Positions 7,411 to 61,440 of a stretch of 64,000 nucleotides of DNA are shown here, one piece after another. The DNA is taken from the NCBI GenBank assembly GCA_023627715.1, contig JAMAHW010000124.1, positions 1 to 64,000 on the forward strand, written 5' to 3'. The notes under the pieces were generated by a model that was given only the letters and a program-made list of their open reading frames with translations, was not told the DNA's origin and did not search any database. Every line of letters starts with the position of its first letter. Within the stretch, counting starts at the first letter, position 1. This stretch comes from Periconia sp. R9002 (lineage: Eukaryota; Ascomycota; Dothideomycetes; Pleosporales; Periconiaceae). Position numbers and translations under genes: made by a program.

Positions 7411-9211
7411 ACGTAGCTGGCAAGCGAGCGGCGTACTTCGTCAACTTTCTGCGACGCGTCACCTACAAACCGCAATGGCTCAATTAAATCTTACTCAATT
7501 GCCAGGCAAAGAAGCAAGTATTGACCTTGTTATCCTCGCTACGAACCAAAGATATAGAGTGGACGACGCGCTGCTGCTACCTACAGCGTACCTGGAAACC
7601 ACGCTCCGCCGCCAACGCGCTGGAATCGCTGCGCAACGCGATTGTAAGACTAAATCAAAAAAGTTTACCAAGCTAGAAGAGGAGGTGATTATAGGGCATA
7701 TACTTGACCCAGATTCGCGAGGCTTTACGCCTACGTTAGGTGCTGTACGAGATATGGCAGACAAGCTGCTCGCTGAGCGTGGCGCTGGGCAGGTTCGCCA
7801 GAAGTGGCCAAAGGACTTTGTCAACCGGACAGATAGCCTTACTACGCGGTTTGATCGACCATATGATCGACAGCGAGCTCTCTGCGAGGACCCAGTAGCT
7901 ATACAAGCCTGGTCCGAGCTTGTAACGCGCACAAAGGCCACATACGGTGTCTGCGATGAGGATACCTTCAACTTCGACGAGACTGGCTTTCTAATGGGCA
8001 AGATATCCTCCCAGCTAGCTGTCACAGGCTCAGAGAGGCGTAGCCAGCCAAAAGCGATCCCGCCAGCCAATCGCGAGTGGGTGACGGCGGTCCACGGAAT
8101 CAACGCTGCTGGGTGGGCTATCCCGCCCTCTATCGTATTCGCTAGCCAGTACCACCTCTCTGCCTGGTACGAGGGCAACGATATACCTAGTGACTGGGCT
8201 ATTGGTCTTAGAGATAATGGTTGGACTACGAACGAGCTTGGTACTGCCTGGCTACAGCACTTTATCAAGCATACAGCAGAGCGTAGGGCAGGCGCGCACT
8301 AGCTACTCATATTTGACGGCCATGAGAGCCATAACTCGCTCGAATTTCAGGAGATCTGCAAGGAGAATAATATATATACTCTCTGTGGGCCGTCACATTC
8401 GTTGCACCTTCTGCAGCCGCTAGATTAGCTCCCCCTCGCCGTTGAAGCGAGCGTACAAGGACCTGATACGCGACCATATCAACCATACTACTAAGCTTGA
8501 GTTTCTTACCAGCATTCCATGCTGCCTACAACTAGTCAATTACAAAGGAGAATATTCGCGCAGGCTTTCAAGGCGCTGGCTCAGTTCTACACAATCCAGA
8601 GGTGGTGATATCAAAGCTTGATGTAAAGCTTCGTACGCCGTCGTCAGTAGCCCTACCAGAGGCTATATGGGAAGCCAAAACACTAAGCAACCAGCGCGAA
8701 ATAGAGGCTCCATCAACCTTGATTCGTAATCGGATTAGCGTGCATAAGAGCTCGTCACCAATTTCTATTATTGAGAGGCTCAACGAGCTAGAGAAGGGCT
8801 CTTCAAAAGCGATGCATCAGATAGCGCTAATGCGCGAGCGAATTTCGAGCCTTGAGAGAGCAAATGAGGCGCGACGGCACGTGAAAAGCGCAAAAAGAAA
8901 CGACTCCAGAAGCGAGGGACTCTATCAAAAGCAGAGGGAGAGGATATTATTACTCAAAAGGCTGTGGAGCAGCAGCTAGAAGGAGAAACACGGCAAGGTA
9001 AGGCGCGGATAGGTACAAACCGGTACGATTCAGCGCGCTGCACGCGATGCAGAGGGCCTGGGCACAACCTACGTACGTGTAAGAAGGCTTCTACAGATAC
9101 TGCTTAATATATTGTAGGTATTATACTAATGGAACATTGATATATTGTAAGTCTATACGCTACAAAAGGCCCAAGGTTTGGTAGGGTGCCCCGCTCATTT
9201 GCCAACTACGT
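7411..9211 (+). mobile_element. Fot/pogo-like DNA transposon with TIRs
   Basis: The ends form an imperfect inverted repeat of about 21 bp: 7411-7431 (ACGTAGCTGGCAAGCGAGCGG) pairs with 9191-9211, with three mismatches by eye. Between them lies a broken pogo/Fot transposase on the plus strand. The element is about 1.8 kb, normal for the family. TA lies immediately to the left; the right flank reads CA, so the expected TA duplication is not intact or the ends are set one or two bases off. Confidence 0.75.
7475..9111 (+). pseudogene. Fot/pogo-like transposase, disrupted
   Basis: The first frame (7475-8302) carries a CENP-B-type HTH region (LEEEVIIGHILD ... RDMADKLL ... RQKWPKDFVNR) and the first catalytic aspartate in FNFDETGF. 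A TAG at 8300-8302 interrupts the domain just before the second DDE motif, LLIFDGHESHNSLEF, which continues in the same frame to LQPLD and another stop. A frameshift follows (SPLKRAYKDLIRDHI), then 8602-8979 gives NPEVVISKLDVKLRTP-like sequence and a coiled coil (RISSLERANEARRHV). A CCHC zinc knuckle (C-x2-C-x4-H-x4-C) is encoded at about 9037-9090. The protein cannot be made as it stands, so the element would be non-autonomous. Confidence 0.8.
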
Positions 9212-28365: not shown

Positions 28366-28528
28366 TACCTGCAACCCGCGAACTATACGATCAGATCTAG
28401 AACTCATGCTAATACAAGTGCTGACATTGGTATAGAATAACAGGGAGCTTGGACCATAAGTGTGTAGGATAAGAAGACCTCATTCTGCACAACTGTTGCC
28501 AAAACATCCACAACAGACTGTTCATTCA

Positions 28529-28537
28529 CTATATATT
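28529..28537 (+). promoter_or_regulatory. Possible TATA box of the tandem-intron gene
   Basis: CTATATATT, about 55-60 bp upstream of the ATG at 28591, in an otherwise ordinary leader without upstream ATG. Pattern match only. Confidence 0.35.
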
Positions 28538-28590
28538 CTAACCAGCTCATTGTACAGCTGCTGAATTTACGAACTTGTATCATCATAACT

Positions 28591-29360
28591 ATGCGAACTC
28601 TTGCGATCTTTATTGCCACAATGGTAATTCCAGCAATTGGGGGACCTGTAGCCCCACCTGGCCAACTTCCTACGCTCGACCAACGCCAGACTGTGAGTGG
28701 TTCTCCCTGTCCTGTGCTGGGTACTTGCACGGTATTGGCTAATGCCTGGCATGATCTCGTTGATGGTATAGTGTGTAAGTGGTTCACTCTGTCCTGTGCT
28801 ATATCTGCACGGTATTGGTCAATGACTGACTTGGTTTTGCTTCTGATATAGACCGTAAGTGATTCGCCCTGTCCTGTGTTAAGGACCTGTAGAGTTGGCT
28901 AATATCTGACGTGGTTCTGCTGGTGGTGTAGTGTGTAAGTGGTATTCCCCATCCTGTATTAAGGAATTGCACGGTATTGGCTAATTTCTGACGTGGTTCT
29001 GCTGGTGGCGTAGGTCGTAAGTGGCTCTCCCTGTCCTGTATTAAGGACTTGCACGGTATTGGCTAATGGCTGACGGAGCCTTTCTGGTGTAGCCTGTAAG
29101 TGGTTCTCCCTGTCGTGTCCTATCCTGTATACTTGCGTGGTATTGGCTAATGGCTGACGTGGTCTCGCTGGTGGTATAGTGCGTAAGTGGTTTTCCCTGT
29201 CCTGTGTCAAGGACTTGCACGGTATTGGCTAAATATGACGTGATTTATCTTGGTGGTGTAGGGTGTAAGTGGTCCTCCCTGTCTTATATTATAGGCTTCC
29301 ACTCTCTTGGCTGATGGCTGACGTATCCTCCTCTTGATCTAGCCAGAAAAGGCAGCTTAA
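28591..29360 (+). CDS. Secreted Cys-rich micropeptide gene with seven 3-nt exons
   Basis: Exon 1 (28591-28692) encodes a signal peptide (MRTLAIFIATMVIPAIG) and a Pro-rich stretch to RQT. Then come eight intron-like units of 76-84 bp separated by exactly 3 nt: TGT 28772-28774, ACC 28852-28854, TGT 28932-28934, GTC 29014-29016, CCT 29093-29095, TGC 29180-29182 and GGT 29262-29264. The last exon (29343-29360) encodes PEKAA and a stop. Full splicing adds C-T-C-V-P-C-G and yields 46 residues. Every unit has GTAAGT (GTGAGT in the first), a CTAAT/CTGAC-type branch region and a TAG acceptor. All junctions are phase 0, so any exon may be skipped without changing frame. Role unknown: a secreted Cys-rich or processed peptide is likely. 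That the units are spliced is inference; that they are tandem, related and intron-shaped is directly visible. Confidence 0.6.
28693..29342 (+). repeat. Tandem array of eight intron-like units
   Basis: Unit boundaries are 28693-28771, 28775-28851, 28855-28931, 28935-29013, 29017-29092, 29096-29179, 29183-29261 and 29265-29342. The shared core is GTAAGTGGTTCTCCCTGTCC, then ACTTGCACGGTATTGGCTAA, then GCTGACGTGG and a TAG end. Units 4, 5 and 6 are closest; unit 8 and unit 1 are most diverged. The body of the units varies while donor, branch region and acceptor hold. Confidence 0.9.
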
Positions 29361-29759: not shown

Positions 29760-30260
29760 ATGAGTTCGTTTTTAGACAAAAGCTGCATTTCCCTTGCAAA
29801 TAAAGCTCTTGAAAGAGGCCCTAAATTCTCCGTACGAAAGGCAGCTTCTCTATAATGTTCCTGAAGCAACGCTCCGTCACCGACGCGCTGGACGACTACC
29901 ACGACGTGAAAAGCGTGCAAATTTAATGAAGATGACTATGTTAGAGGAAAGAGTGATTCTTGAACGAATTGTTGACGTAGTTGATCGGGGATTTCCGCCG
30001 CGACGCGAAAATGTGCGAAATATGGCTGATTCTCTTCTCGGGGTACGTCTTCTCGGGGTACGCGACGCGACGCGTGTCGGACCGCGATGGGTGGGAAACT
30101 TTGTACGACGCCAACGCGACCTAACAATGCACTTCCGACGCCGAATCGACTATCCGAGGGCACTATATGAAGACCCTGGGATTATTTGCGCTTGGTTCGC
30201 GCTCGCACGGAACACAGTTGCGAAATACGGTATTCTTCAGTCGGATATTGTCGCACTTTT
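29760..30260 (+). pseudogene. Fot/pogo-like transposase, N-terminal fragment
   Basis: From ATG 29760 the frame gives LANKALERGPKFSVRKAASL and then a stop; the next frame continues without loss as YNVPEATLRHRRAGR, the psq-type HTH. A CENP-B-type HTH follows (MLEERVILERIVDVVDRG, then VRNMADSLL and VGNFVRRQ). The region ends near KYGILQSDI, just before the first catalytic Asp, where OrsD-like DNA takes over. It is a different element from the one at 7.4 kb. Confidence 0.75.
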
Positions 30261-30439
30261 GCATGCGTGAGGTCGTTGTTCACACCAAAAATCAGTGAAT
30301 ACGGTATATTGTGTGTGATCGAGTGTGATGTATGTATGATCACCTTAGCCATTGCTTCTATTCAGGAAGCACAGCAGGCTTACTAATACAGCTAGTTCTC
30401 GCACGTGCTCACAACAGTGCCTGGCCTGCGACACCAAAC

Positions 30440-34012: not shown

Positions 34013-37000
34013 TCATGTCTGAAGCTCCGTGGACAGCCGAGTAATCGTCTCGCAGAGCTTACCGAGAAGCATGTTGGCGTGATCAACAGTCAGAGTATGA
34101 GTGGTGCCGCTGATTGAGAGTCGAAGCTTGTCGCCCTGCGGATGTGCCAGAACAGAGAAGTAAGGAGGCATCCAAAAGGGATTTCTGAACCATTCAAGCT
34201 TTGTGGCTGTGCCAGCAAACTGGACTTCCGGCTGCTCATCGACGTTCTGATATTGCAGCACAGAATCAAACTCGGTTGCCATTGGCCAGTCCGTGCAGTT
34301 TCGAACGATGTCGTGCAGTCCCATGGAATCCGACTCCTCGAGTGAGACATATTGCTCTTGTATGGAGCGAAGGAGAGAGATGGACGTTGTTTGAGGATGC
34401 ACCAAAGCCCGGACCGGAATGATGTTTAAACAAGGACCGACAATATCTGTGATGCCAGGGAGATCAGCGTTACGACCAGCGACCACATGTCCGTATACTA
34501 CGTCTTCTTCTCCGCTGACATCCGAAAGAACTATTGCCCAGGCGCAGCTGACCAGCGAAGCGACAGTAAGGGAGCTGGGAAGCTGCGGCATGCTGATGAC
34601 GCTCTCGACTTGGACCAGCCGGAGCGGAACGTCTTTGAGTACTTTTGGGTCGAGCTTCGGAGTGGCCTTGGTCATACGCGAGCAGCTGAGTAGCTTCCGC
34701 CAATAAAGAATGGAAGCAGATTGTCGGCGTTGTGCATTTGCGACATAGGTAGAAAAGCTTGGGGCGGGGTGCAACGGCTCCTCGCGGTAGATGGCAAAGA
34801 GCGTATTGAAGACGGCCGGGAGGCAAATGCCGTCATACTGAGCGTGAGAAAGGCGAAGTACCAATCGGTGTTCGCGGAGGTGATTTCGTATGAGAAAGAA
34901 TGAGGTAGGCAGGGCAGCAGGGGATGAGTTCTCCGCATCCTGCAGGCAGATTGCGTGTGACGCTTCCGGTAACGTCGTATCTACCTCGAACATAGAAAAA
35001 GCAAGCTCTGGGTCGCGAATAATAACCTGCCATAGATTTCCCTCCACGAACACGAACCGCGTGCGAAGGATTGGAAGGTGGTTCAGAAGGTCACGACAAC
35101 TTCTTTCGAGACGCTGCACGCTCAGAAGGGAGCCCATATCGAGAAATAGATAATTGAAAGCTTGGAGCGGATGCTGAATACCGTGGGTGATATATAGTTC
35201 TTGCACGTATGTGGCCGGCACGATATCAAAGATGTTGTTGACATGAATATCAGACAAGTTGGCTTTGATATCGGAAAGGGTGTGACCCTTTGTGGCTGGC
35301 GAGACAAGAGAGAAAGGTGGGATCTGCTCCGGCGTTGAACGAAGGGTGGGTTGTGAGCAGAGGACTAGAGAGGAAAGACGTGGTGACCGGAAAAGATCTG
35401 CAACCTTTAGGGAGATACCTTCCTTGCGCGCCTCGGCCACCAGCTTCATCGCCGCGATCGAGTCGCCGCCCAACCGGAAGAAACTGTCGTCCAGCCCGAT
35501 GCTGTCGGGCTCGATCCCCAGCACCCGCGCCCACAGCTGCTGCAGTGTCTTCTCCATCTCCGTCCGCGGTTGTCGCTTCGGTCCCTGGCTCTGTGTCCGT
35601 AGCTCCGCGAGCTGCTGGACTGAGAACGAGGCCCCCATCTCACGCAGCCGCCGCCTGTCCGTCTTGCCGGACGTCGTCATCGGAAGTCCGGCCACGGAAA
35701 AGTAGACCACGGGCACCATGTGGTTCGGCAACTGCGCAGTCAGTTTATCATCTGCTTCCGCTGGGAAGAACACCTGCGCCGCTGCCTCGTCCTTCCCAGC
35801 GGCTTTGCTGTCCGGCAGCAGCGCATTCCGCCTGCTTTCGTCCAGCTGCGCGAACGCCGCTACCATGACCTTCTCTTTCTCTCCCGCCGGCGCAATCACC
35901 TCAACTGCCACCTGTCTGGCCTCGGGCAGGCACGCGCTGATGTGGTGCTCAATCTCGCCCAGCTCCACCCGCTGGCCTCGGATCTTGACCTGACTGTCTT
36001 TGCGGCCCACGTATACCAGGTTCCCGTCCGACTCGTACCGCACCAGGTCTCCCGTCTTGTACAGCCGGCCCCGTCGTCCTGCATGCTTGTCGCTGCCTTG
36101 GAGTAGCCAGGCCGGGTCGCTGATGAAGGCAGCCGCCGTCTTGTCCGCGTCGTTGAGGTAGCCGCGCGCTAGGATCGGCCCCTCCACGAGGAGCTCGCCT
36201 ATCGACCCCAGCGGTGCCAGCTTGTCGTGGTTGTCCGGGTCGACCACCCAGCTGACCGAAGCTACCGCCTTGCCGATCAGTCCCGTTTTGAAGCCCTGCG
36301 TATCTGAGAACACGCAGCACGTGACGCAACACTCTGCCGGCCCGTAGGCGTTCATGGTACGGACATGGCCTTGCCACCTCTCCCAATCGGCAGCCATAAC
36401 CTGCTCACCTATGAAAGCCAGCGTCTTCAGTGGGGGCACACCGGCAGGATCAAGTAATCGCGCTATGGACGGAGTGAGAAACGCCCAGTTTACGGTCATG
36501 TCATTGATAGCCTGATCGAGGTCGTCTCGTCTGTTGCCCTCGGACGGAACGCAGACACAGCCACCATATAGAAGTGTTGTAAGAATGTCAGTGATACAGA
36601 CATCAAACGAGTAAGAGGAAAACTGCAGAGCTCGTGTATGAGATGAGAACCCCAGTGTTCTTCCATGACTCAGACAGCTTGTCGAGACCGCCCCGTGTTC
36701 CACCACGACTCCTTTCGGGATTCCAGTGCTCCCGGACGTGAAGATAATGTATGCCGTATGGGCCGGACGTGTCTTTGAAGGTACGAAGCGGTTCGTGTTG
36801 GGCAGGCCCTGCATCGACGCCTCGCTCACTGCCACCACCATGTGGTTGGAGCCCGGCCACAGGGTCGCGTGTTGCGCCGAAGTGAGCACCACCTTGGCCT
36901 CCGTCTGCTCCAGCACCTCCTGGTGCCGGCTGCGTGGATGCTCCGGGTCCAAGGGTGCGAAGGCCCCGCCGGCCTTGAGCACCGCCAGCATCGCGACCAC

Positions 37001-40000
37001 CGTCCACATCGACTTCTCGAAGCACAGCGGCACCATGCCTTCGGGTCCGACGCCTAGCTCAACGAGGTGGGCCGCTAGCTTTGTTGACAGCTCGTCCAGC
37101 TCGCTGTACGTCGCCTCGCCGTCCCAGGCGCAGATGGCCGGCGCGTCAGGCTGCACATTTGTCTGCTCGACGAACAGCTCGTGGATGCATCGCTCGACCG
37201 CTGGCGGCACCTCGCCATTCCACATCCATAGCATTTGCCGCTCCTTGGGTGTAAGCATTTCCATGTCCCCGATGACCGTTTGGTCGTTTGCTCCAGCCAG
37301 CTGCTGCATGACGAAGCTGAGCTGGCCCAGCATCCTCTCCACCTGCTGCTGCTCAATAATCCGCGAGTCGAAGCTGGCCGTAATGTGTACGCCTTTGGCA
37401 GTTAGCGTACACTGCACCATCAAGGCATGCGTGGTGAAGTTCTGCTGCTCCGAGCTGCCCCGCCACGTCCCCGGCATCCCGTCATTCACTAATCCGTGGT
37501 CTGCAGTCTGCACCACCAGCAGTGTTTGGAAATTGCAAGCCTGACGAGCGCCTGGGCCCATTTTAGCGATCTGCTGTAGCCCTGTCTGCTCGAAGGGGAT
37601 CATGTCGGTCGCTTGTTGTTGCAGCCCTTCTAGGTATGCGGGTACTGTCTGGTTACTTGCCACACGGACTCGCACTGGCACAGTCGCAATTGTCGGCCCG
37701 AGTATGTCCTCGATACCGGCAACGGGTGCGTTACGCCCTGTAACAACAGCACCGAATATCACATCGTCGGAGTTTGTGTAGCGGCTGGCGAGGATGGCCC
37801 AGGCGGCACGGACAAGTGTTGATTTCGTTGCGTTGAAGAATTCTTTGGGAAGAGGTGGGCACCGATAATGCACTGTTGTGTCTGGTACAAGTTGCTGCAC
37901 GGTTGGCGGTGGCGGTGGAAACGGCGTCGCTTGGCAGTTAGCTAGAGTGCTCTGCCAGTACTCCACTGCTGACCCTTGGTCTTGCTGGCCGAGATACTTG
38001 ATGAAAGCTTGAAAGCCAGGCTGTCCTCCGGCAATGCCACCTCCATATACGGTTTTGACTGCTTCTGAGATGCGAGGTAGCGACCAACCGTCATATAGCG
38101 AATGGTGGATTGTCCACACAAACCAACGCTTACTTTCCTTGTCTTCCCGGACCAGAGCATACCGTACGAGGTGTTCACCAAGCCCCATCGAGACTTCCTG
38201 GTCCTGTTTGAGATAGTCATCCAGTCCATCTGCATGAGTCCATTGGATGCTTTCAGCCGTCACAGCCTGTAGTAGGCCAAGCTTACTGTGCAGCACAATC
38301 CTTGTGCGCAACACCTGTGTTGACTGGACGACTTGGTCCCAGGCGGCCCGGAAAGCTTCTTCGTCTATGTCTTCCCGCAGTTCCAGAACGGCTTGTATGA
38401 TATAGTCTCCTGCTCTCTTAGACGTCAGCGACATCAGTCCTTCCTGGAGCGGTGAGCACGGGTAGATGTCTTCGATAAGACTTGCATCGACGCTGCAGCT
38501 AGCAGCCACTTCCTCGCGAACTTGTGTCACATCTGTGCATTCACCTAGTAAAGAGAAAGCCGGGATCTCCTCGGCTATGTCGTTACTGTATCTGCAGTCT
38601 AAGCCAGCTAAGGCGACTAGCTTTGGGTTGCGAAAAATGTCCGCGACGGTCAGTTGAAGGCCTTCCTTGCGGGCCTCGGCCACCAGCTTCATCGCCGCGA
38701 TCGAGTCGCCGCCCAGCCGGAAGAAGCTGTCGTCCAGCCCGATGCTGTCGAGCTCGATACCCAGCACCTGCGCCCACAGCCGCTGCATCGTGCGCTCCGC
38801 CTCCGTTGACGGTTGCCGTATGGATCTTTGGCTGGTCGTTCGGTCTTGCATTCTTTGTGCGAGCGCACGCCGATCTACCTTACCGTTCTCGTTGATTGGA
38901 AAGTCATCGAGAACATTGACCGATTGAGGAACCATATATTCTGGCAGCTGAGCCCGCAGAGCCTCTTCGAGTTGGTGCTGAACTTCTTTGGCATACTGTT
39001 GTCGCAACGGCTTGCTGCTGAAGCTGTGCTGTGGTCGATCCGCATGGTCGGCAGGGAACCGGAACATCACTCTGCTTTCCTGGGTCTCGGATTGGCACTG
39101 GTAAAAGACAGCATCGAGACCACCGTGCTGGGAGTACTGCCTACTCCAGCTGATTTCGACACGGCAGCCTGCTTCTTCCGCGAGCTCCACCAAGTCGACG
39201 GCAGAAAGCGACGGTGTCTGCTCCGCTGCTTGGCGAATCGAAGCGACCCATTCCCTTTGGTCCAGCGCTCCAGCTTTGTTATCGTCCAGAGCACCTATAA
39301 GGCCTCTGCTGAAGATGGTCTTGCTGTGGAGGATGTTGCTTATGGCTATGGCAGACGAGCTTGAACGACTCTCCAACCGCTGCAGGAGAGACTGGCGGTT
39401 CAGCTTGTGCTCTTCAAAGTCCACCCATTCGTCGTGACCAATGTGCCGAATCTCTCGCGCTGGCTGCCCTTGGCCTTTAACGTGGATGACGGCAGCATAG
39501 CGGTAGCAGCTCAGTTCGTTGGTTGCCTTCATCCGCTTTGGCAGAATCTCCACATGCTCCACGAGATCGGGAAAGCGGCTCGGTAGGGCTGTAAAGAAGC
39601 CAGGGTCGACCAACAGCTCCCGCTCCACCTGCTCCATGTCCTCCACCATGCGTCGGATGTCTTCCCTGGTCGCTCCATCGCCGGCCATTCGCAGCGCTCT
39701 GCTTGCCAGGAACTCGCGGTGTAGTGCGTACGAGCGGACGTCGCCAAAGAACATTGTCTGCACCCCTTTGAGTCTGAGAAGCCCTTGAACAACTTGGAAA
39801 AGGTACTCCTGACTGGGGAAGTACTGTACTACTGAGTTGAGCACAACCAAATCTACCGATCCTGTCAGCTCTATGCGACCGATGTCTGTCGCTGTGGCCT
39901 TGTACATGCGGACCTTGTCAGCAAGCGAAGGGATGGATTTGGCTGCTTCCTCGATGAATCGTACTGCCCTTCCGGATGGATCCAGCCCAACGTAGCTTTC

Positions 40001-43000
40001 TAGGCCCTCGAGCAGGTTCAACAGGACCATACCGGTCCCCGACCCGATTTCGAGGACGTTTCCCGGCCGCCCATGGACAGCTGTATATATTGTACGCATC
40101 GTGTCGTCCAGCCACTCGTTCATCTCCATCTTGTCGATCTCGCTGCCATCGTACATAGACGTCCAGCCGACGAAGTCTCTTCCAATGGCTTCAGGCTGGA
40201 GGTTGTCAATCGGTGCGTACGTCTCCGAATCAAAGCGGTCCTCCCACTCATCCACGTGCTGCGACTGGCCGGCGCCTCCCAGCGGTTCATCTGATCCATC
40301 AGATCCTTCCTCGAGCGTCACATATCCTACTAGTTTCGGATCATCGTTGTCTCTTTTGCTCGTCACGACCACTGCATCTTGCACGGATCCGTGGCTGCGA
40401 AGCACATGCTCGATCTCTCCCAGCTCGACGCGGTGACCTCGGATCTTGACCTGTCCGTCCATTCGTCCGAAAAACTCTAGCTGGCCATCCTTGGGTCGGT
40501 AACGGACCATGTCGCCTGTTCGGTAGGCTCGCATCGTCTCATCTCCAATCCTGACCATGACGAAGCGGCCGACGTCGCGCGCAGGATCAGTGTACCCTCT
40601 TGCGAGGCCATCCCCAGTCACTACCAGCTCTCCGATGACCCCGAGCGGAACGAGTCGCTGCTTCTGATCCATGACGTAGGCGCCGGAGTTGCTGATGGCC
40701 CGGCCTATGGGCACGCCGTTCGTGCACTGCTCCTTCTGATCCCAGTGGAATGTCGTGCTGACTGTCGTATTCTCTGTCGGGCCATAAGCGTTGATTACAT
40801 TGGTTGTGACGAGCTCTTGGGCAGCAAACAAATCATTCTTATCAGCTCGGTCTCCACCCACGTAGAGCGTATCCAGCGTGGTGAGAGTGAATGGTGATGC
40901 GAGCAGACATTGCTTGAGGAGAGCAGGTGTAAACACAGCTACAGTGATCATTTCGCTTGCAAAAATGCTTCTGAGAGCGGGGTAATCTAGAACGGTCATG
41001 TAGTCAATACAGACCAACGTGCCACCATTCAGAAGCGCAGCATAGATCTCCAACGTCGAGGGGTCGAACGCAAGGTTTACCATATGAGCCATGACCCCAG
41101 AAGGTGGTAAAAGCTGTGCAAGGTTTCCATCCTTCACCAGTCGCACGATCCCACGGTGCTCGACCATGACCCCCTTCGGCTGGCCGGTGGAGCCTGAAGT
41201 GAACATGACATATGCGAGGCTGGTAGCTGAAGGTTTGACAGGTGCCTTTGATTGCTTGACGATGGACTGATCGCTGGCACTTTCGGCGAGGGCTTCTGCA
41301 ATCTGCACAAACTCGACATTGTCAAGACTAAGCTTGGGAAGTTGGACACTGTCCCCTATCAAGACTAGCCTCGATCCTTCGGTGGATGAGAGGATAGTGT
41401 GCATCCGTGCCCCTGGAATCTTGACGTCGAACGGCAGATATGCCAGCCCAGCTTTGAGGATGGCCAGCAAAGCGACGATTGCCTGGCAGCTGCGGTCTGC
41501 AAAGACGCCAACCAGCGCCTCGGGGGCAAATCGCCGCGTTTCCAACCATCGGGCAAGCCTGTCCGATGACTCGTCGAGTTGAGCGTAGGTCATCTCCCCT
41601 GACAAGTCTTTGACGGCGACCCTAGAGGGATGGGCAGTGACTTGCCCACGGAAGAGGTCGACGACGCTCGATTCTCGTGGATAAGGGGTCTGATCCATCC
41701 GAATGAGGCCCAGCTGATCGAGCTGAGCGTAGGTCTCGGTGGTCAACATTGGTATAGACGCGACCTTCATCTTCGGCTCGTCGAGACACTTGTCGAGGAT
41801 TCTCTGGAACACAGATACCAAGGCAGATATGGTTTCGGCGGCGTAGAGGTCGGTAGAGAAAAATACCTGTCCTTGGAGACCATCTTGTACCGGAAAGAAG
41901 TGGAACTCAAGATCGAATCGTGAAGTTGCTGAGCCGTGCACAGCCTCCACTTCCACGCCCTCCAACGATAGCTTCCCTAGATCCTTCTGCGAATGGACAG
42001 CAAAAACAACCTGCACAATAGGGTGGCGAGAAAGGTCTCTGTCCCTTTGCAATCTAGACACAATCTGTTCGAAGGGAACGTCCTGATTGGCAAGCGAAGC
42101 AACTGCTGCTGTGTTAACCTGCTCAACCAGCTCCTCAAAAGACCCATTACCAATCTTGATCCGGAGACACTGCATGTTGACGAAGAAGCCAATCATATCT
42201 TTGAGTTCCCAGCGGTCCCGATTGGCGTTGGGAGCGCCAATGGTCGCGTCGTCTTGGCCCGTGAGGTGGTAGTGCGCAGCTCGGAAAGCTGCCAGCAGGA
42301 CGACAAATTGAGTCACTCCGCGCGCTCTGCAGAACTGCTGCAGTCTGTTGTACAGCTGACCGTCGATTGTGAGCTGATGCGTGCCTGCTTTGCCAGACAA
42401 GGTAGCCGGTCGAGTGTAATCGCACAGGAACTCGGCTGGCCGGCTGGTTTGCAGTTCGATGATCCAGTAGTCGAGCTGCCGTCGATGTCCTTCAACCTGC
42501 TCCTGCTGCCTCTGCCACACAGAGAAGTCGCGATACTGGACGGATAATGGCGGTAGGCGGGAGATGGGATCCTGGCCCCGGATCGCGGCAGAGTATAGCG
42601 TGCTCAGTTCTCTCTGAAACACATCTTGTGACCAGCCGTCCGAGATGATGTGATGCATGACGATTGACAACACGTGGTTTTGTTCGTGAAGTCGGTAAAT
42701 GCATACCCTCCATCCTGGCTCGCTGTGCAGGTCGAACGGTGTTGTTTGATCTCGTTGCAAGGTATCGAAAAGGCCTTGCTCATTGTCTAACGAAATGTCG
42801 ACAATATTCAACTCTCTAGCACGGAAAGGGTGGACCTTCTGCATAGCTAGACCATCATTGGTGAAAAAAGTCGTCCGCAACGTTTCGTGCCGGTGCTCTA
42901 CTGCCTGCAGCGCAGCTTCAAGTGCATCGAGTTGGAGAGCGCCCGTAATGCGCACTGCAAATGGCATGAGGTACCATTCCAGTGCTGGGTGTAACTCTTC

Positions 43001-46000
43001 CAAGAACCAGAGCCGGCCCTGGGCGAACGACTGAGCGATGGGCCCGGAGTGATCCATGCAAGGAATGGTTCTTAGCGCATTGTTCTGCGGGCGGCCAGTT
43101 TGATCGGCCAAGTGGCCCAACTGCGGAGTGCGAAAGACATCTGCGACCGCTAGTTGAAGGCCTTCCTTGCGGGCCTCGGCCACCAGCTTCATCGCCGCGA
43201 TCGAGTCGCCGCCCAGCCGGAAGAAGCTGTCGTCCAGCCCGATGGTCACAGGCTCGATGTTCAACACCCGCGCCCACAGCTGCCGCAGTCTCTTCTCATT
43301 CTCCGTCCGCGGTTGTCGCTTCGGTCCCTGGCTCTGTGTCCGCAGTTCCGCCAGCTGCTGGGCCGAGAACAAGGCCCCAATCTCGCGCAGCCGCCTCCTG
43401 TCCGTCTTGCCAGACGTCGTCATCGGGAGCTGCGACAACACAAAGTACACGTCAAGAATCATGTGACGAGGCACGCGTTCGGCCATTCTGGCATCCACGT
43501 CGGCCAGGAAGACCATCTGCACTGGTGAGCTGTTATCAAGCGCGTTGCCCGCTCGAAGTACAGCACGCCCCTCCGTGTCCAGTTGCAAGAAAGCTGCCAG
43601 CGTTGCATGTTCTTTCTCTTCGTCTAGTAGGATCACCTCGACCGCAACCTGCTGCGCCTTTGGAAGGCACTCCCGTACGTGGTACTCGATCTCGCCCAGC
43701 TCCACCCGCTGCCCCCGGATCTTGACCTGGTTGTCCTTGCGGCCTACGTAGATCATGTTGCCGTCTTCATCGTACCGCACCAGGTCGCCCGTCTTGTACA
43801 GCCGGCCTCGTCGTCCTGCATGCTTGCCGCTGCCTTCGACTAACCAAATCGGGTCGTGGATGAAGGCAGCCGCCGTCTTGTCCGCGTCGTTGAGGTAGCC
43901 GCGCGCTAGGATCGGTCCCTCGACCAGAAGCTCGCCTATCGACCCCAGCGGCACCAGTTTGTCGTGGTTGTCCGGGTCGACCACCCAGCTGACCGAAGCT
44001 ACCGCCTTGCCGATCATTCCCGATCTGAAGCCCTGCGTATCTGAGAACACAGAACACGTGACGCAGCACTCTGCCGGCCCGTAGGCGTTCATAGTACGGA
44101 CGTGTCCTTGCCACCTTGCCCAATCGACAACGCTGGACTGCTCCCCGCCAAGAACCAATTTCGTGAGTGGTGGGACGGTCCCGGGGATGAGCACTCGCGC
44201 CACAGATGGAGTGAGTAACGCCCAGTTTGCGCCCATGTCGTTGATAACCTGAGCCAAGTTGTCCCGTCTGCTGCCCTCGGACGGAACGCAAATACAGCCA
44301 CCGTACACCAACGTCGTGAGAATCTCTAGAATGCAAGCGTCGAATGAATAGGAGGCAAATTGTAGGGCTCGCGTGTGAGATGAGAATTCAAATGCTCTCC
44401 CGTGACCCAGACAGCTTGTTGAGGCCGGCCCGTGTTCCACCACCACTCCTTTTGGAGTTCCAGTGCTCCCGGACGTGAAGATAACGTACGCTACATGGCT
44501 CGGACGTGCTCTTGAAGGTATGAAGCTGGCAGTGTTTGGCAGATCTTGCATCGAGGCCTCGCTCACTGCCACCACTGTGCGGTCGGAGCCTGGCCACAGG
44601 GTCGCGTGCTGCGCCGAAGTAAGCACCACCATGGCACCCGTCTGCTCCATCATTTCCTCATGTCGGCTGCGTGGGTGGTCCGGGTCCAAGGGTGCGAATG
44701 CTGCGCCGGCCTTGAGCACCGCCAGCATCGCCACCACCGTCCACATGGACTTCTCGAAGCACAGCGGCACGATGACTTGGGGTCCGACGCCTAGCTGAAC
44801 CAGGTAGGCAGCTAGCTTCGTCGACAGCTCGTCCAGCTCGCCGTATGTTGCCTCGCCGTCCCAAGCGCAGATAGCCGGCGCGTCAGGCCGCGCATTCGCT
44901 TGCTCGACGAACAGCTCGTGGACGCATCGCTCCACCGCCGCCGGCACCTCGCTGTTCCACTTCCACAGCTGTTGTCGGTCCTCGGTCGTCAATACCTCGA
45001 TGTCCGCAACGACTGTTTGACTGTTTGCTCTAGCTAGCTGCTGCATGACGAAACTGAGCTGGCGGAGCATCTTCTCCACCACCCACTGCTCGGTGACTCG
45101 AGAGTCAAAGCTTGCCGTCATCCCTATTCCGTCTGGACCCAACGTGCACTGTATCGTCAGTGCATATGTTGCGAAGTTACGTACCTCTTGGTAGCTCTGC
45201 CATTCTCCCAGCAAGCGTTTGCTCCCGAGCATGTCGTCTCCCGGCTGCACCACCAGTAGGGTCTGGAAATCGCAGGCCCGTCGGCCATCCGCCCCCATCT
45301 TGGCGATCCGATGCAAGCCTGTCTGCTCGAAGGGGATCATCTCCGCCGCTTGCTGCTGCAGTGTCTCTAGGAATGCAGAGACCGCCTGGTATCTTCCTGC
45401 GCGCACACGCACCGGTACCGTTGCAATCGTCGGCCCAACCATGGCCTCGATGCCGGCGACTGGCGCATTCCGGCCCGTCAGAGTAACCCCGAACACTACA
45501 TCCTCAGAGCCGGTATAGCGGCTGGCGATGATGGCCCAGGCTGCGCGTATGAGCATCGACGTCGTCGTGTCTGAAGCCGCTTTGGCCAGCGGCGCGCACT
45601 GATACTCGACCGTTCCGTCTGCCACGGGCTGCTGCACTGTGGACGGCAACGGTGGAAACGGTGCCGCCGTGCAGTCGGCTAGGCTGGTCCGCCAGTACGC
45701 CGCTGCCGCCTCTTGATCCTGCTGGCTCAGGTAGTGCACGAAAGCCTGGTAGTCGGGCTGTCGGGCAACACATCGCCGCTGTATGCCAATTCGACGTTCG
45801 CTAAGATCTGGGGCAGCGACCATCCGTCGAACAAAGCGTGGTGGGCTGTCCACACGAACCATCGTTTGGTTCCGTGGGGCTCCCGAACCAGTGCATAGCG
45901 CACAAGGGGTTCGCCGAGCCCCATCGAGGCTGCCTTGTCCTGCTCGAGGTACTCGGCCAGTCCCTCTGCCTGCATCCACTGGACGTCGTCCTTGATGACG

Positions 46001-46078
46001 GCCTGGAGCAGGCCCAGCCCGCTGGTGTGCACGATCCTCGTGCGAAGGATGGCCGCAGACTGCACCGCTCGCTCCCAA
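34013..46078 (-). CDS. Tentoxin-synthetase-like NRPS, modules 2-4 and terminal C domain
   Basis: Large part of a nonribosomal peptide synthetase; the open frame gives up to 4021 residues, but real coding starts near 45765, where the frame from 45727-49530 crosses over. By residue of this frame: rest of C2 (from about 105), A2 (YVIFTSGSTG near 538), T2 (LGGDS near 957), C3 (HHIISDG near 1144), A3 (FTSGSTG near 1629), N-methyltransferase (EIGSGTG near 2014), T3 (2457), C4 (HHSLYDG near 2661), A4 (FTSGSTG near 3117), T4 (3537) and a final condensation-like domain with SHAQYDG (3745), typical of fungal cyclising C domains. Modules 1 and 3 methylate. The architecture matches that described for tentoxin synthetase (cyclic tetrapeptide, N-methyl at positions 1 and 3). 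The actual substrates cannot be fixed by eye. It acts in the cytosol and needs a phosphopantetheinyl transferase. Confidence 0.85.
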   Translation of the reverse strand: MGASGAVCGHPSHEDRAHQRAGPAPGRHQGRRPVDAGRGTGRVPRAGQGSLDGARRTPCALCTGSGAPRNQTMVRVDSPPRFVRRMVAAPDLSERRIGIQRRCVARQPDYQAFVHYLSQQDQEAAAAYWRTSLADCTAAPFPPLPSTVQQPVADGTVEYQCAPLAKAASDTTTSMLIRAAWAIIASRYTGSEDVVFGVTLTGRNAPVAGIEAMVGPTIATVPVRVRAGRYQAVSAFLETLQQQAAEMIPFEQTGLHRIAKMGADGRRACDFQTLLVVQPGDDMLGSKRLLGEWQSYQEVRNFATYALTIQCTLGPDGIGMTASFDSRVTEQWVVEKMLRQLSFVMQQLARANSQTVVADIEVLTTEDRQQLWKWNSEVPAAVERCVHELFVEQANARPDAPAICAWDGEATYGELDELSTKLAAYLVQLGVGPQVIVPLCFEKSMWTVVAMLAVLKAGAAFAPLDPDHPRSRHEEMMEQTGAMVVLTSAQHATLWPGSDRTVVAVSEASMQDLPNTASFIPSRARPSHVAYVIFTSGSTGTPKGVVVEHGPASTSCLGHGRAFEFSSHTRALQFASYSFDACILEILTTLVYGGCICVPSEGSRRDNLAQVINDMGANWALLTPSVARVLIPGTVPPLTKLVLGGEQSSVVDWARWQGHVRTMNAYGPAECCVTCSVFSDTQGFRSGMIGKAVASVSWVVDPDNHDKLVPLGSIGELLVEGPILARGYLNDADKTAAAFIHDPIWLVEGSGKHAGRRGRLYKTGDLVRYDEDGNMIYVGRKDNQVKIRGQRVELGEIEYHVRECLPKAQQVAVEVILLDEEKEHATLAAFLQLDTEGRAVLRAGNALDNSSPVQMVFLADVDARMAERVPRHMILDVYFVLSQLPMTTSGKTDRRRLREIGALFSAQQLAELRTQSQGPKRQPRTENEKRLRQLWARVLNIEPVTIGLDDSFFRLGGDSIAAMKLVAEARKEGLQLAVADVFRTPQLGHLADQTGRPQNNALRTIPCMDHSGPIAQSFAQGRLWFLEELHPALEWYLMPFAVRITGALQLDALEAALQAVEHRHETLRTTFFTNDGLAMQKVHPFRARELNIVDISLDNEQGLFDTLQRDQTTPFDLHSEPGWRVCIYRLHEQNHVLSIVMHHIISDGWSQDVFQRELSTLYSAAIRGQDPISRLPPLSVQYRDFSVWQRQQEQVEGHRRQLDYWIIELQTSRPAEFLCDYTRPATLSGKAGTHQLTIDGQLYNRLQQFCRARGVTQFVVLLAAFRAAHYHLTGQDDATIGAPNANRDRWELKDMIGFFVNMQCLRIKIGNGSFEELVEQVNTAAVASLANQDVPFEQIVSRLQRDRDLSRHPIVQVVFAVHSQKDLGKLSLEGVEVEAVHGSATSRFDLEFHFFPVQDGLQGQVFFSTDLYAAETISALVSVFQRILDKCLDEPKMKVASIPMLTTETYAQLDQLGLIRMDQTPYPRESSVVDLFRGQVTAHPSRVAVKDLSGEMTYAQLDESSDRLARWLETRRFAPEALVGVFADRSCQAIVALLAILKAGLAYLPFDVKIPGARMHTILSSTEGSRLVLIGDSVQLPKLSLDNVEFVQIAEALAESASDQSIVKQSKAPVKPSATSLAYVMFTSGSTGQPKGVMVEHRGIVRLVKDGNLAQLLPPSGVMAHMVNLAFDPSTLEIYAALLNGGTLVCIDYMTVLDYPALRSIFASEMITVAVFTPALLKQCLLASPFTLTTLDTLYVGGDRADKNDLFAAQELVTTNVINAYGPTENTTVSTTFHWDQKEQCTNGVPIGRAISNSGAYVMDQKQRLVPLGVIGELVVTGDGLARGYTDPARDVGRFVMVRIGDETMRAYRTGDMVRYRPKDGQLEFFGRMDGQVKIRGHRVELGEIEHVLRSHGSVQDAVVVTSKRDNDDPKLVGYVTLEEGSDGSDEPLGGAGQSQHVDEWEDRFDSETYAPIDNLQPEAIGRDFVGWTSMYDGSEIDKMEMNEWLDDTMRTIYTAVHGRPGNVLEIGSGTGMVLLNLLEGLESYVGLDPSGRAVRFIEEAAKSIPSLADKVRMYKATATDIGRIELTGSVDLVVLNSVVQYFPSQEYLFQVVQGLLRLKGVQTMFFGDVRSYALHREFLASRALRMAGDGATREDIRRMVEDMEQVERELLVDPGFFTALPSRFPDLVEHVEILPKRMKATNELSCYRYAAVIHVKGQGQPAREIRHIGHDEWVDFEEHKLNRQSLLQRLESRSSSSAIAISNILHSKTIFSRGLIGALDDNKAGALDQREWVASIRQAAEQTPSLSAVDLVELAEEAGCRVEISWSRQYSQHGGLDAVFYQCQSETQESRVMFRFPADHADRPQHSFSSKPLRQQYAKEVQHQLEEALRAQLPEYMVPQSVNVLDDFPINENGKVDRRALAQRMQDRTTSQRSIRQPSTEAERTMQRLWAQVLGIELDSIGLDDSFFRLGGDSIAAMKLVAEARKEGLQLTVADIFRNPKLVALAGLDCRYSNDIAEEIPAFSLLGECTDVTQVREEVAASCSVDASLIEDIYPCSPLQEGLMSLTSKRAGDYIIQAVLELREDIDEEAFRAAWDQVVQSTQVLRTRIVLHSKLGLLQAVTAESIQWTHADGLDDYLKQDQEVSMGLGEHLVRYALVREDKESKRWFVWTIHHSLYDGWSLPRISEAVKTVYGGGIAGGQPGFQAFIKYLGQQDQGSAVEYWQSTLANCQATPFPPPPPTVQQLVPDTTVHYRCPPLPKEFFNATKSTLVRAAWAILASRYTNSDDVIFGAVVTGRNAPVAGIEDILGPTIATVPVRVRVASNQTVPAYLEGLQQQATDMIPFEQTGLQQIAKMGPGARQACNFQTLLVVQTADHGLVNDGMPGTWRGSSEQQNFTTHALMVQCTLTAKGVHITASFDSRIIEQQQVERMLGQLSFVMQQLAGANDQTVIGDMEMLTPKERQMLWMWNGEVPPAVERCIHELFVEQTNVQPDAPAICAWDGEATYSELDELSTKLAAHLVELGVGPEGMVPLCFEKSMWTVVAMLAVLKAGGAFAPLDPEHPRSRHQEVLEQTEAKVVLTSAQHATLWPGSNHMVVAVSEASMQGLPNTNRFVPSKTRPAHTAYIIFTSGSTGIPKGVVVEHGAVSTSCLSHGRTLGFSSHTRALQFSSYSFDVCITDILTTLLYGGCVCVPSEGNRRDDLDQAINDMTVNWAFLTPSIARLLDPAGVPPLKTLAFIGEQVMAADWERWQGHVRTMNAYGPAECCVTCCVFSDTQGFKTGLIGKAVASVSWVVDPDNHDKLAPLGSIGELLVEGPILARGYLNDADKTAAAFISDPAWLLQGSDKHAGRRGRLYKTGDLVRYESDGNLVYVGRKDSQVKIRGQRVELGEIEHHISACLPEARQVAVEVIAPAGEKEKVMVAAFAQLDESRRNALLPDSKAAGKDEAAAQVFFPAEADDKLTAQLPNHMVPVVYFSVAGLPMTTSGKTDRRRLREMGASFSVQQLAELRTQSQGPKRQPRTEMEKTLQQLWARVLGIEPDSIGLDDSFFRLGGDSIAAMKLVAEARKEGISLKVADLFRSPRLSSLVLCSQPTLRSTPEQIPPFSLVSPATKGHTLSDIKANLSDIHVNNIFDIVPATYVQELYITHGIQHPLQAFNYLFLDMGSLLSVQRLERSCRDLLNHLPILRTRFVFVEGNLWQVIIRDPELAFSMFEVDTTLPEASHAICLQDAENSSPAALPTSFFLIRNHLREHRLVLRLSHAQYDGICLPAVFNTLFAIYREEPLHPAPSFSTYVANAQRRQSASILYWRKLLSCSRMTKATPKLDPKVLKDVPLRLVQVESVISMPQLPSSLTVASLVSCAWAIVLSDVSGEEDVVYGHVVAGRNADLPGITDIVGPCLNIIPVRALVHPQTTSISLLRSIQEQYVSLEESDSMGLHDIVRNCTDWPMATEFDSVLQYQNVDEQPEVQFAGTATKLEWFRNPFWMPPYFSVLAHPQGDKLRLSISGTTHTLTVDHANMLLGKLCETITRLSTELQT

Positions 46079-49000
46079 GCGGCCCGGAAGGTGGTCTCGT
46101 CAAGGTCGGCTCGCATCTCGAGCACGTATCGCATGATGTAGTCGCCTGCGTTCTTGGAAGTCAACGAGACCAGCCCTTCCTGCAGTGGAGAGCAAGGATA
46201 GACGTCGTCGATGGATTGCACGTCCACGCTACAGGCCGCAGCCACTTCTTCGCGGATTTGTGCTGCATCCACGCTTGGGTCTAGCAGCGAGAAGGCGGCC
46301 ATCGGTCCGGTTGAGGACTCGACCGCCCTGCTCCTCAGATGGGCCTGGTCGACCAGCTTGGGATGTCGGAATATGTCTTCGACGGTCAGCTGGACGTCGT
46401 GCTTGCGAGCCTCGGCTACCAGCTGCATGGCCGTGATGGAGTCACCACCCAGCCGGAAGAAGCTGTCGTCCACACCGATGCTCTCGGGCCTGATGTCCAG
46501 CACCCGCGCCCACAGCTGCTGCATCGTCCGCTCTCCCTCCGAGGTCGGCTGCCTGCCGGTACTTGGGCTCGGCTTTTCATCGACGGTGTATGCTTCGAGT
46601 GCCTTGCGGTCTCTCTTTCCGCTTGTGTTCAGAGGGATCTTATCCAGCTTCGTAATCCACCGAGGGATCATGTAGGACGGTACTCGCGCCTGCAGCGTCT
46701 CGCGCAGCTTCCTCTGCACCTTCCGCCACACCTGTTCTTCCAGCGGCTTGCTGGTGATTCCGTTGGGCCGCCCTTCGTGATGGTCATCGGGAAACTGGAA
46801 CACGGTCCTAGGGCTTCCGTCGATGGACGGGGTCCGGTGGAAGATGGCATCGAAGCCACCGTGCTGCGAATACTGCCTGCTCCAGCTAACCTCCACGCGA
46901 CAGCTCGCTTCGCGCGCCAGATCAACCAGATCCATAACAGAAAGCGATCGAAGTTGGTGGGCCGACTTTCCCACCGACAGCAGCCAGTCTTCCTCCTTGG
47001 CCATCATTTCACTTGTGTCCTCCAGGGAGCGAAGGAGGCACTGGCTGAAGGCGGTTTTGCTGTGCGGGATGTTGCTCACAGCTACAACACTCGAATCGGT
47101 GACATGCTCGAGTCGCTGTGCGAGCGATTCGCGTTCCAGTTTACTCTCGGCAAAGTTGATCCAGCTGTCGTGACGAACACGTTGGAACTCATGAAGCGGC
47201 TGGTCTCCTGTCCTCGCATGGACCACGGCAGCATAACGATAGCAGCTGAGCTCGTTGGTTGCCCTCATCTTCTTCGGCAATATCTCGACGTGCCTCACAA
47301 GGTGCGGCAAGCGACTGGGAAGCGCGGTGAAGAATGCTGGGTCGACCAGCAACTCCATGTCTGCTTGTTCCATGTCCGCCATAATCCGTAGCACGTCAGC
47401 CTTCGTTGCGTGCTGGCCCGCCACGCGCAATGCTCTGGTGGCCAGAAACTGTTTCTGCAGTGCGTGAGAGCGGACGTCCCCAAAGAACAGAGTTTTGACC
47501 CCCTTTATCTCCAAAAGGTCTTCTATGACCTTGAACAGATACTCCTGGCTGGGAAAGTACTGCGCAACCGAGTTCACAATCACAAGGTCGGCGGTGATCG
47601 AGTGGGCGAACACGCCGATGTCTGCTGCGGTAGCCTCGTGCATGCGAACCTTACCTGCGAGCGCAGGAATCGATTTCGCAGTGGTTTCGATGAATTGCAC
47701 CGCGGTCATCGATGGGTCCAGGCCTACGTAGCTTTCGAAATTGGCGCCCAGGTTGAACAGGATCATACCGGTGCCAGACCCGATCTCGACAATGTTCTCT
47801 GGCTGGCCATTACTCAGTATCGTATCGATGGTATCGTCCAGCCACTCGTCCATTTCTCCTCTGTCGATCACGTTGCCATCTTGCATCGCGGTCCAGCCAA
47901 GGAAGTCTCGACCAATCAGGTCGGATCGGAGGGTATGCACCGATGCGTACACGTCGGAGGTAAACCGCTCTTCCCACGTGTTCACGTGCGCATCGACCAC
48001 GGCGTTATCCAGAGAAAGGGTAACAAACGCCGCCAACTGGGCTTCTCTTCCGTTGCGACGTTGTAAGACAACGATGGCGTCGCTGACTTCCTCTTGACTG
48101 GCGAGGACGCTCTCGATCTCGCCCAGCTCGACGCGCTGCCCCCCGATCTTGACCTGGTTGTCCTTGCGGCCTACGTACACCAGATTGCCGTCCGGCTCGT
48201 ACCGCACCAGGTCTCCCGTCTTGTACAGCCGGCCTCGTCGTCCTGCATGTTTGTCGCTCCCTTGGAGTAGCCAGGCCGGGTCGCTGATGAAGGCAGCCGC
48301 CGTCTTGTCCGCGTCGTTGAGGTAGCCGCGCGCTAGGATCGGTCCCTCGACCAGAAGCTCGCCTATCGACCCTAGCGGCGCCAGCTTGTCGTGGTTGTCC
48401 GGGTCGACCACCCAGCTGACCGAAGCGACCGCCTTGCCGATCACCACAGACTTCCAATCCTGTGTGCTAGTGAAACTAATACAAAATACACAGCACTCTG
48501 TAGGTCCATAGCCATTCATCGTACGCACACGCCCTTGCCACCTCTTCCAATCGGTAACACTAACCTGCTCACCGCCAAGAACTAACGTCGTGAGTGATGC
48601 GACCGTACTAGGGTCGAGCAGCCGCGCCACAGATGGAGTGAGAAAGGCCCAGTTGACGTTCATGTGGCTGATAGCCTGAGCCATTTCGTTTCGCCTGCTG
48701 TCTTCGGAGGGTATACAGACACAGCCCCCATACAGAAATGTCGTGAAGATCTCAGCAATGCAGGCGTCAAAGGCATAGGAGGCAAACTGCAAAGTTCGGG
48801 TACCGGAGTTAAATTCCAGAATCTTGCCATGGCCTATGCAGCTTGTAGATACGGCTTTGTGTTCCACAACCACTCCTTTCGGGACTCCAGTGCTCCCGGA
48901 CGTGAAGATAATGTACGCAGCATGGCCCGGCTCTGCTGCGGAACGGGCCGAGCCGACAGTGCTTGGCAGGTCCCTCATCGATGCCTCGCTCACTGCCACC

Positions 49001-58880: not shown

Positions 58881-58972
58881 TTATTGATTTATTGATTTAT
58901 TGATTTATTGATTTATTGATTTATTGATTTATTGATTTATTGATTTATTGATTTATTGATTTATTCATTTAT
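58881..58972 (+). repeat. Microsatellite (TTATTGAT)n
   Basis: At least eleven head-to-tail 8-bp units, near-perfect until TTATTCATTTATTTAG at the right end. It abuts the N gap, so the true length is unknown. Confidence 0.97.
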
Positions 58973-59236
58973 TTAGTTAGTTTTTTGCTCGCCTCGACAA
59001 GCGTCGCATTTGCATCTTACCACGAGTGACTTATCATATTGTAGCCGAGTGGCTCGCTATGGTAGACAAACTACGTCATCAACTCAAAACGCTCCTTTTG
59101 CGCGTCGTCAGCAGCTTAGCAACTTTGCTATGGCGGCAGGTCGCTTATACCCGCTGACTCGGCGTGGACTGGACCGAAGCGCCAGGTTGGTCCTCCTCGG
59201 TGCTTACTTCCCCGAAGCGCGTAAGCGAGGAAAGCC

Positions 59237-61339: not shown

Positions 61340-61440
61340 GCGACTCGCAATGCATCTTGCACCAGGATTCAGTCACGTGACTCGCTTACGTGTCGAGATT
61401 GTGCTCGGCTTCAGGTCCCAGATCCCAGTCCTCGGCTTCA
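61340..61440 (-). repeat. Flanking repeat of the gag region, distal copy
   Basis: The phrases CACGTGACTCGCTTACGTGTCGA and TTGTGCTCGGCTTCAGGT recur, slightly changed, at 62910-62960. The two blocks are direct repeats flanking gag, as LTR remnants would be. Here the second phrase is tandemly doubled and overlaps the 3' end of the gag frame. Confidence 0.55.

Follow-up and report, generated by a model that had tools for sequence, protein, structure and literature searches.

Can a fungal gene be divided so finely that successive codons each form an exon of their own? The question is raised by a locus in the window, that is, in the whole stretch of 64,000 nucleotides of the Periconia sp. R9002 genome that was analysed, where eight similar introns follow one another head to tail with exactly three bases between neighbours. 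With a probability of roughly three in four, we take this locus to be a gene of a small secreted peptide, a short stretch of which is encoded by exons of one codon each. Ordinary intron definition would remove the sister introns stepwise, and the inclusion of the exons is probably variable.

Structure and splice signals of the locus

The locus occupies positions 28591–29360 of the forward strand, and direct reading reveals a first exon, eight introns, seven exons of 3 nt, and a closing exon with a stop codon. The first-pass annotation had described the same layout, namely a signal-peptide exon, eight units of 76–84 nt with 3-base gaps, and an in-frame last exon, and the reading confirms it. 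A putative TATA box (TATATA, 28530–28535, forward strand) is located about 60 nt upstream of the start codon and is the sole TATAWA hexamer in 28441–28590. Exon 1 (28591–28692; 102 nt, 34 codons) has a signal-peptide-like N-terminus, the hydrophobic core of which ranks in the top 1.1–1.2% when compared with the open ATG frames from 275 kb of the genome. The codon use of this exon is unremarkable, with 27% of the open ATG frames scoring equally high, and a search of the whole genome found no second match to it at E ≤ 10.

The introns lie, all on the forward strand, at 28693–28771 (79 nt), 28775–28851 (77 nt), 28855–28931 (77 nt), 28935–29013 (79 nt), 29017–29092 (76 nt), 29096–29179 (84 nt), 29183–29261 (79 nt), and 29265–29342 (78 nt), the eighth being one of the most diverged units in the unit alignment. 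The one-codon exons between them are TGT (Cys, 28772–28774), ACC (Thr, 28852–28854), TGT (Cys, 28932–28934), GTC (Val, 29014–29016), CCT (Pro, 29093–29095), TGC (Cys, 29180–29182), and GGT (Gly, 29262–29264). The last exon (29343–29360, 18 nt) adds five codons and the TAA stop in frame. The lengths of the introns modulo three vary; the exon length is constant at 3 nt. A donor marks one end of the array and an acceptor the other, and the end of exon 1, CAG ACT before GTGAGT, resembles one further junction. Retention of a single intron would introduce an internal stop in six of the eight cases, while retention of intron 1 or intron 7 would lead to a shifted, longer frame.

The array is detected by Tandem Repeats Finder. 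In a sample of 274,598 bases, comprising the window and 210,598 bases in 22 stretches of the same genome, it is the only case of a run of at least three GTRAGT motifs spaced 50–130 nt apart, and also the only run of YAG-NNN-GTRAGT junctions with this spacing. Folding of the array was considered as well; it showed no excess over shuffled sequences (z 0.39). The unspliced 86-aa frame has no relative at E ≤ 10 among about 5.8 billion proteins of a collection that hardly covers fungi, as can be judged from a conserved gene of the window, for which it contained a single hit at E ≤ 1e-20.

Elsewhere in the window, a large non-ribosomal peptide synthetase (NRPS) region occupies 34013–49530 of the reverse strand; its two overlapping frames show four AMP-binding and two methyltransferase matches. 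Transposon-like frames are found at 7475–8302 (DDE_1 endonuclease), at 29794–30270, just 3′ of the array (a Tc5 DNA-binding match below the cut-off), and at 61386–62582 (Gag-like retrotransposon protein). A near-perfect octamer array, TTATTGAT, is present at 58881–58973 in 11.6 copies.

The donor is GTAAGT in seven of the eight introns and GTGAGT in intron 1, and the acceptor is TAG in all eight, exactly as had been claimed. A branch region had also been claimed for each unit; a CTRAY motif is indeed located 19–29 nt from the 3′ end of seven introns, but intron 7 contains CTAAA only. The introns were compared with the U2-type pattern of filamentous ascomycetes, defined here by a GTRNGT donor, a CTRAY branch motif 8–45 nt before a YAG acceptor, and short length. 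All eight donors and acceptors and seven branch motifs correspond to it, and excision of these introns is predicted on this basis.

Reference introns were obtained from the same genome by restoring coding frames. The strict search yielded 7 introns and the relaxed one 16, with none in the decoy search; this is a small sample that serves as a guide only. Since the search required the GTRNGT, CTRAY, and YAG patterns, only the choice among their variants is informative. GTAAGT is the commonest donor of the 16 introns (5/16), the acceptors are CAG in ten and TAG in six, and the branch motifs are CTAAC (7), CTGAC (5), CTAAT (3), and CTGAT (1). Their median length is 57.5 nt, and three of them reach 76 nt or more. 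The introns of the array, with their 76–84 nt, fit the signals of the genome but belong to the long part of the size range.

Recurrence of the arrays in the genome

The genome, of the type found in filamentous ascomycetes and comprising 42,939,567 bases (42.9 Mb), was searched with two junction patterns. The pattern built on Cys codons was found at 33 places versus 37 in the control, hence without a genome-wide excess. Three of these matches are in the window, and among the other 30, all of which were inspected, one (on contig C142) had further 3-nt junctions. The second pattern, 12 bases long, was found at 65 places versus 111 in the control, again without an overall excess; 23 of the 65 matches lie in or beside four arrays, with six in the window, three in C142, six in C197 (one of them 687 nt away), and eight in C211. 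The remaining 42 are single matches, of which 31 were left out of inspection, so that the number of places in this genome with arrays of one-codon exons is given as at least four. Because the same layout recurs at no fewer than three other places, the array of the window is not a chance repeat.

In the four arrays, the introns are 66–84 nt long, and their mutual likeness inside the arrays is 69–91%. The exon upstream of each array meets the first donor in phase 0; it is an ATG exon in three arrays and an ankyrin exon in the fourth. The hydrophobicity of the ATG exons places them in the top 1.1% (window), 9.2% (C142), and 1.8% (C197) of open ATG frames, and by this measure the signal-peptide likeness of the C142 exon appears weak.

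The second array (C142:19873–20395, reverse strand) follows a signal-peptide-like exon of 36 codons, with junctions 71 nt apart and introns of 68 nt. Its codons are GGT, GGT, CAA, GCT, and TGT, and the acceptor at the second GGT is altered to TAA. By eye, the likeness of its first intron to the repeat units is confined to the 3′ part. The first exons of the window and C142 genes gave no alignment at E ≤ 100, and paralogy of the two is unsupported. The third array (C197:15700–16329, reverse strand) follows a signal-peptide-like exon of 32 codons, which in frame has no protein family match at E ≤ 1. It contains at least six one-codon exons (TTC, GGT, GTT, GGT, TTC, and GAT) and continues past the stretch analysed; judging from a further junction match at 15162, it may hold about eight more units.

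The fourth array (C211:9110–11350, reverse strand) lies behind an ankyrin-repeat exon (Ank_2, E 2e-13) and, as its spacing suggests, includes about 24 one-codon exons. In the part analysed, the codons are AGC, CCT, CCC, GAC, AGC, ATT, TAT, GAC, GGC, TAC, CGT, CCT, CCC, AGT, and ATT; three further codons are provided by junction matches, and GTT is found at the end of the array. The array overlaps itself with 82% identity at a shift of 712–717 nt, about nine units, which corresponds to a partial internal duplication. Downstream, a phase-0 frame of 22 codons ends with TAA; it is weakly ankyrin-like (Ank, E 0.16, below the cut-off). This TAA can be explained either by damage or by the beginning of another intron. 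All four arrays are situated on rather short contigs (C124, 74.6 kb; C142, 52.5 kb; C197, 18.8 kb; C211, 15.8 kb), which perhaps represent repeat-rich or end-of-chromosome regions.

Conservation and codon history within the arrays

In the window array, identity to the majority base averages 0.986 over the nine columns of the donor and acceptor versus 0.814 over the other intron columns. Nine columns drawn at random reach this level with p 4.5e-5, and among 79 contiguous blocks, only two are equally high, the block itself and its neighbour. The exon columns show the opposite, with mean pairwise identities of 0.19, 0.33, and 0.43 versus 0.74 in the intron, and none of the 77 neighbouring intron triplets is as variable (p 7e-4). 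The C211 array, with 14 aligned units, is similar in both respects: the intron identity is 0.805 and that of the splice columns 0.984 (p 9e-4), and the exon columns are at 0.22, 0.21, and 0.46, with 0 of 74 triplets as variable. In C142, the introns are at 0.907 and the exon columns at 0.17, 0.17, and 0.50 (0 of 66 triplets as variable), and the conservation of the splice columns does not exceed that of the other intron columns (p 0.71). In C197, the splice columns are at 1.0 (p 4e-4), and the variability of the exon columns is non-significant, with a mean of 0.467, a level reached or undercut by 16 of 75 triplets (p 0.12). Overall, conservation peaks at the splice sites in three of the four arrays, and variability peaks in the one-codon exons in three of the four. 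The most and the least conserved bases adjoin at the exon edges, which is not expected for a repeat drifting as a whole. Both this pattern and the three further arrays support the gene model of the first-pass annotation, its splicing being a prediction.

The composition of the codons is also unusual. Of the 23 codons on which the search patterns had imposed no choice, 22 are NNY versus 53% in long ORFs (p 1e-5). Possibly, and this is a guess, the NNY rule reflects a splicing constraint on the last base of the exon; in the 16 reference introns, the last base of the upstream exon is C or T in six. In diversity-generating retroelements, NNY is reached via AAY template codons. Cysteine accounts for three of the seven codons in the window (p 0.001); its enrichment as a general rule was rejected, the four arrays having 4 Cys in the 34 codons read.

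The array 28693–29342 might, alternatively, leave as one 650-nt intron with an internal satellite, the triplets never being exons. The outer donor and acceptor are mutually in frame, and such skipping would be possible with these sites; however, the inner splice sites would then be free to drift, although they show the strongest conservation of all columns in the window array and in two others. Likewise, the triplets should drift like the intron, whereas in three of the four arrays their variability far exceeds that of the intron, and they are nearly always NNY. Given, in addition, that the layout is present at four places, we regard the single intron as improbable.

Slightly less probable again is an unexpressed minisatellite or decayed pseudogene whose unit happens to contain GTAAGT and TAG. 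The damaged acceptor in C142, the possible stop behind the C211 ankyrin array, and the transposon-like frames close by in the window would suit such an origin, but the array is bounded by splice sites and open frames, and in three of the four arrays the codon columns differ in behaviour from the other columns of the unit. The absence of stop codons among the 34 array codons is a weak counter-argument, since it would occur by chance in about one case in five. None of the conservation, the recurrence, and the NNY pattern would be explained well by a passive minisatellite or by a single large intron. Recursive splicing, in which the 3-nt junctions would be ratchet points (the junctions used in this process) for the stepwise removal of a long intron and the triplet would be incidental, is very improbable: an acceptor–donor gap of 3 nt does look like a ratchet point that leaves 3 nt behind, but a 650-nt intron should not require ratchets, a remnant kept in the message is an exon anyway, and incidental triplets would be expected to evolve no faster than the intron.

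In 15 units of the C211 array, the agreement of codon bases was compared with the identity of the introns. The agreement is 7/18 at an intron identity below 0.75, 28/96 at 0.75–0.80, 38/147 at 0.80–0.85, 16/45 at 0.85–0.90, and 7/9 at 0.90 and above. Four mutual-best pairs, chosen by the intron alone, keep 3, 3, 1, and 1 codon bases (8/12), and five pairs that line up with the partial duplication of a block keep 12/15. Apparently, the codons of this array are alike in the most recent copies only and near random otherwise, with introns about 80% alike; retention of codons is only slightly supported. This can be explained either by codons that were in place before the introns spread or were homogenised, or by codons that change much faster than the introns, through selection or mutation.

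Between different arrays, the relatedness of the introns is weak and uneven: the consensus cores give z 1.5–4.1, with 0 to 49 of 400 shuffles as good. We can suggest, tentatively and as a less than even chance, that introns multiply in place between codons, every 3 nt and in phase 0 after a pyrimidine, turning genes of small secreted peptides and of repeat proteins into codon-by-codon cassettes. The introns might have spread into existing codons or been homogenised around them, or the codons might have diversified under a stop-free NNY rule, and stochastic pairing of splice sites might then generate peptide variants differing in single residues.

Known systems, proposed splicing, and significance

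Introner-like elements are near-identical introns that have multiplied in fungal genomes and dispersed to new positions. A genome-wide search, with very common words skipped, used the introns of three arrays (window, C142, and C211) as queries and found matches at their own loci only; an introner or dispersed sister introns can be rejected for the window introns, of which no copy was found elsewhere in the 42,939,567 bases. A stwintron was rejected as well, as each of the eight introns of the window has an intact donor and an intact acceptor, with 3 nt between neighbours. Sister introns and stwintrons are comparable to the arrays in that near-identical introns have multiplied in fungal genomes, while those described in the cited sections are dispersed or nested and the introns here stand head to tail every 3 nt (PMC8469720, PMC7138796).

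The micro-exon genes (MEGs) of Schistosoma mansoni, to which the locus had been likened, encode signal-peptide proteins and have many tiny exons, mostly multiples of three, with frame-neutral skipping (PMC10526429). According to the part of that source used here, their exons measure 6–81 bp, mostly 15 (3–81 in the abstract), and their introns 0.1–5 kbp (PMC10526429). In the predicted window gene, too, a signal peptide precedes many tiny exons whose lengths are multiples of three, and to this extent the parallel holds. It does not extend to the sizes: the window array has only 3-nt exons between sister introns of 76–84 nt, outside the ranges of 6–81 bp and 0.1–5 kbp, for which reason the gene is not classed as a MEG. 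Schistosomes, moreover, are animals. Aphid bicycle genes likewise combine many small internal exons of one phase with fast-evolving secreted proteins; these are also animal genes, nearly all of their internal exons are in phase 2, and one-codon exons are unmentioned in the cited text (PMC9168663). The SP7-like genes of arbuscular mycorrhizal fungi encode secreted repeat proteins with a conserved intron before the first repeat, but belong to another fungal group, and the sections cited report no one-codon exons in them (PMC11333574). As far as these sources go, the schistosome MEGs and aphid bicycle genes are nearest in layout, and sister stwintrons are nearest in intron multiplication.

Exons of similar size are described in the cited parts of two reports on filamentous ascomycetes: in the Fusarium gene CYP621A, a 1-nt exon that has transcript support and is described as the smallest in fungi (PMC12940212), and in lipS of Dactylellina haptotyla, two 3-nt exons (PMC5639578). 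These spliceosomal exons of 1–3 nt are comparable to ours in size but are isolated, and neither sister-intron arrays nor variable codons are reported for them in those parts (PMC12940212, PMC5639578). A search of the open-access literature found no report of serial one-codon exons.

At least 152 HET-domain matches are present in this genome. Abundant HET domains are, we assume, a mark of Pezizomycotina, and what is known of this group was applied here. Splice sites in Pezizomycotina are paired by intron definition, as stated in the cited part of PMC5639578, and in that case no minimum exon size for bridging would be expected. The special splicing mechanism that the first-pass annotation called for was overstated in view of this and of the two 3-nt exons of D. 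haptotyla described there (PMC5639578).

In the preferred reading, consecutive codons in a short stretch of the coding sequence would be separated by sister introns about 78 nt long, each of which carries a complete set of donor, branch region, and TAG acceptor. They would be excised one by one via ordinary intron definition, most simply in the 5′-to-3′ direction on emergence, and each step would extend the upstream exon by 3 nt, which would now adjoin the next GTAAGT. Given that all introns are in phase 0 and the splice sites are near-equal, any pair of a donor and a later acceptor would leave an open frame. Skipping would keep the frame and permit up to 2^7 = 128 exon combinations, and some variable inclusion is likely. 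The conclusion that the one-codon exons are spliced appears well supported by the sequence patterns described, from which we infer the splicing itself, the order of removal, the inclusion of exons, secretion, and function.

If spliced as predicted, 7 to about 24 serial one-codon exons would be an extreme test of the lower exon size of the spliceosome, and intron definition, splicing order, and skipping would be measurable directly on one amplicon. The arrays are also informative about the multiplication of introns, since the introns within an array are sisters and the intervening codons are mostly unlike, and there is a real chance that this mode of multiplication is new. Exons so small are easily overlooked by annotation; thus, comparable genes may lie unannotated in other fungi.
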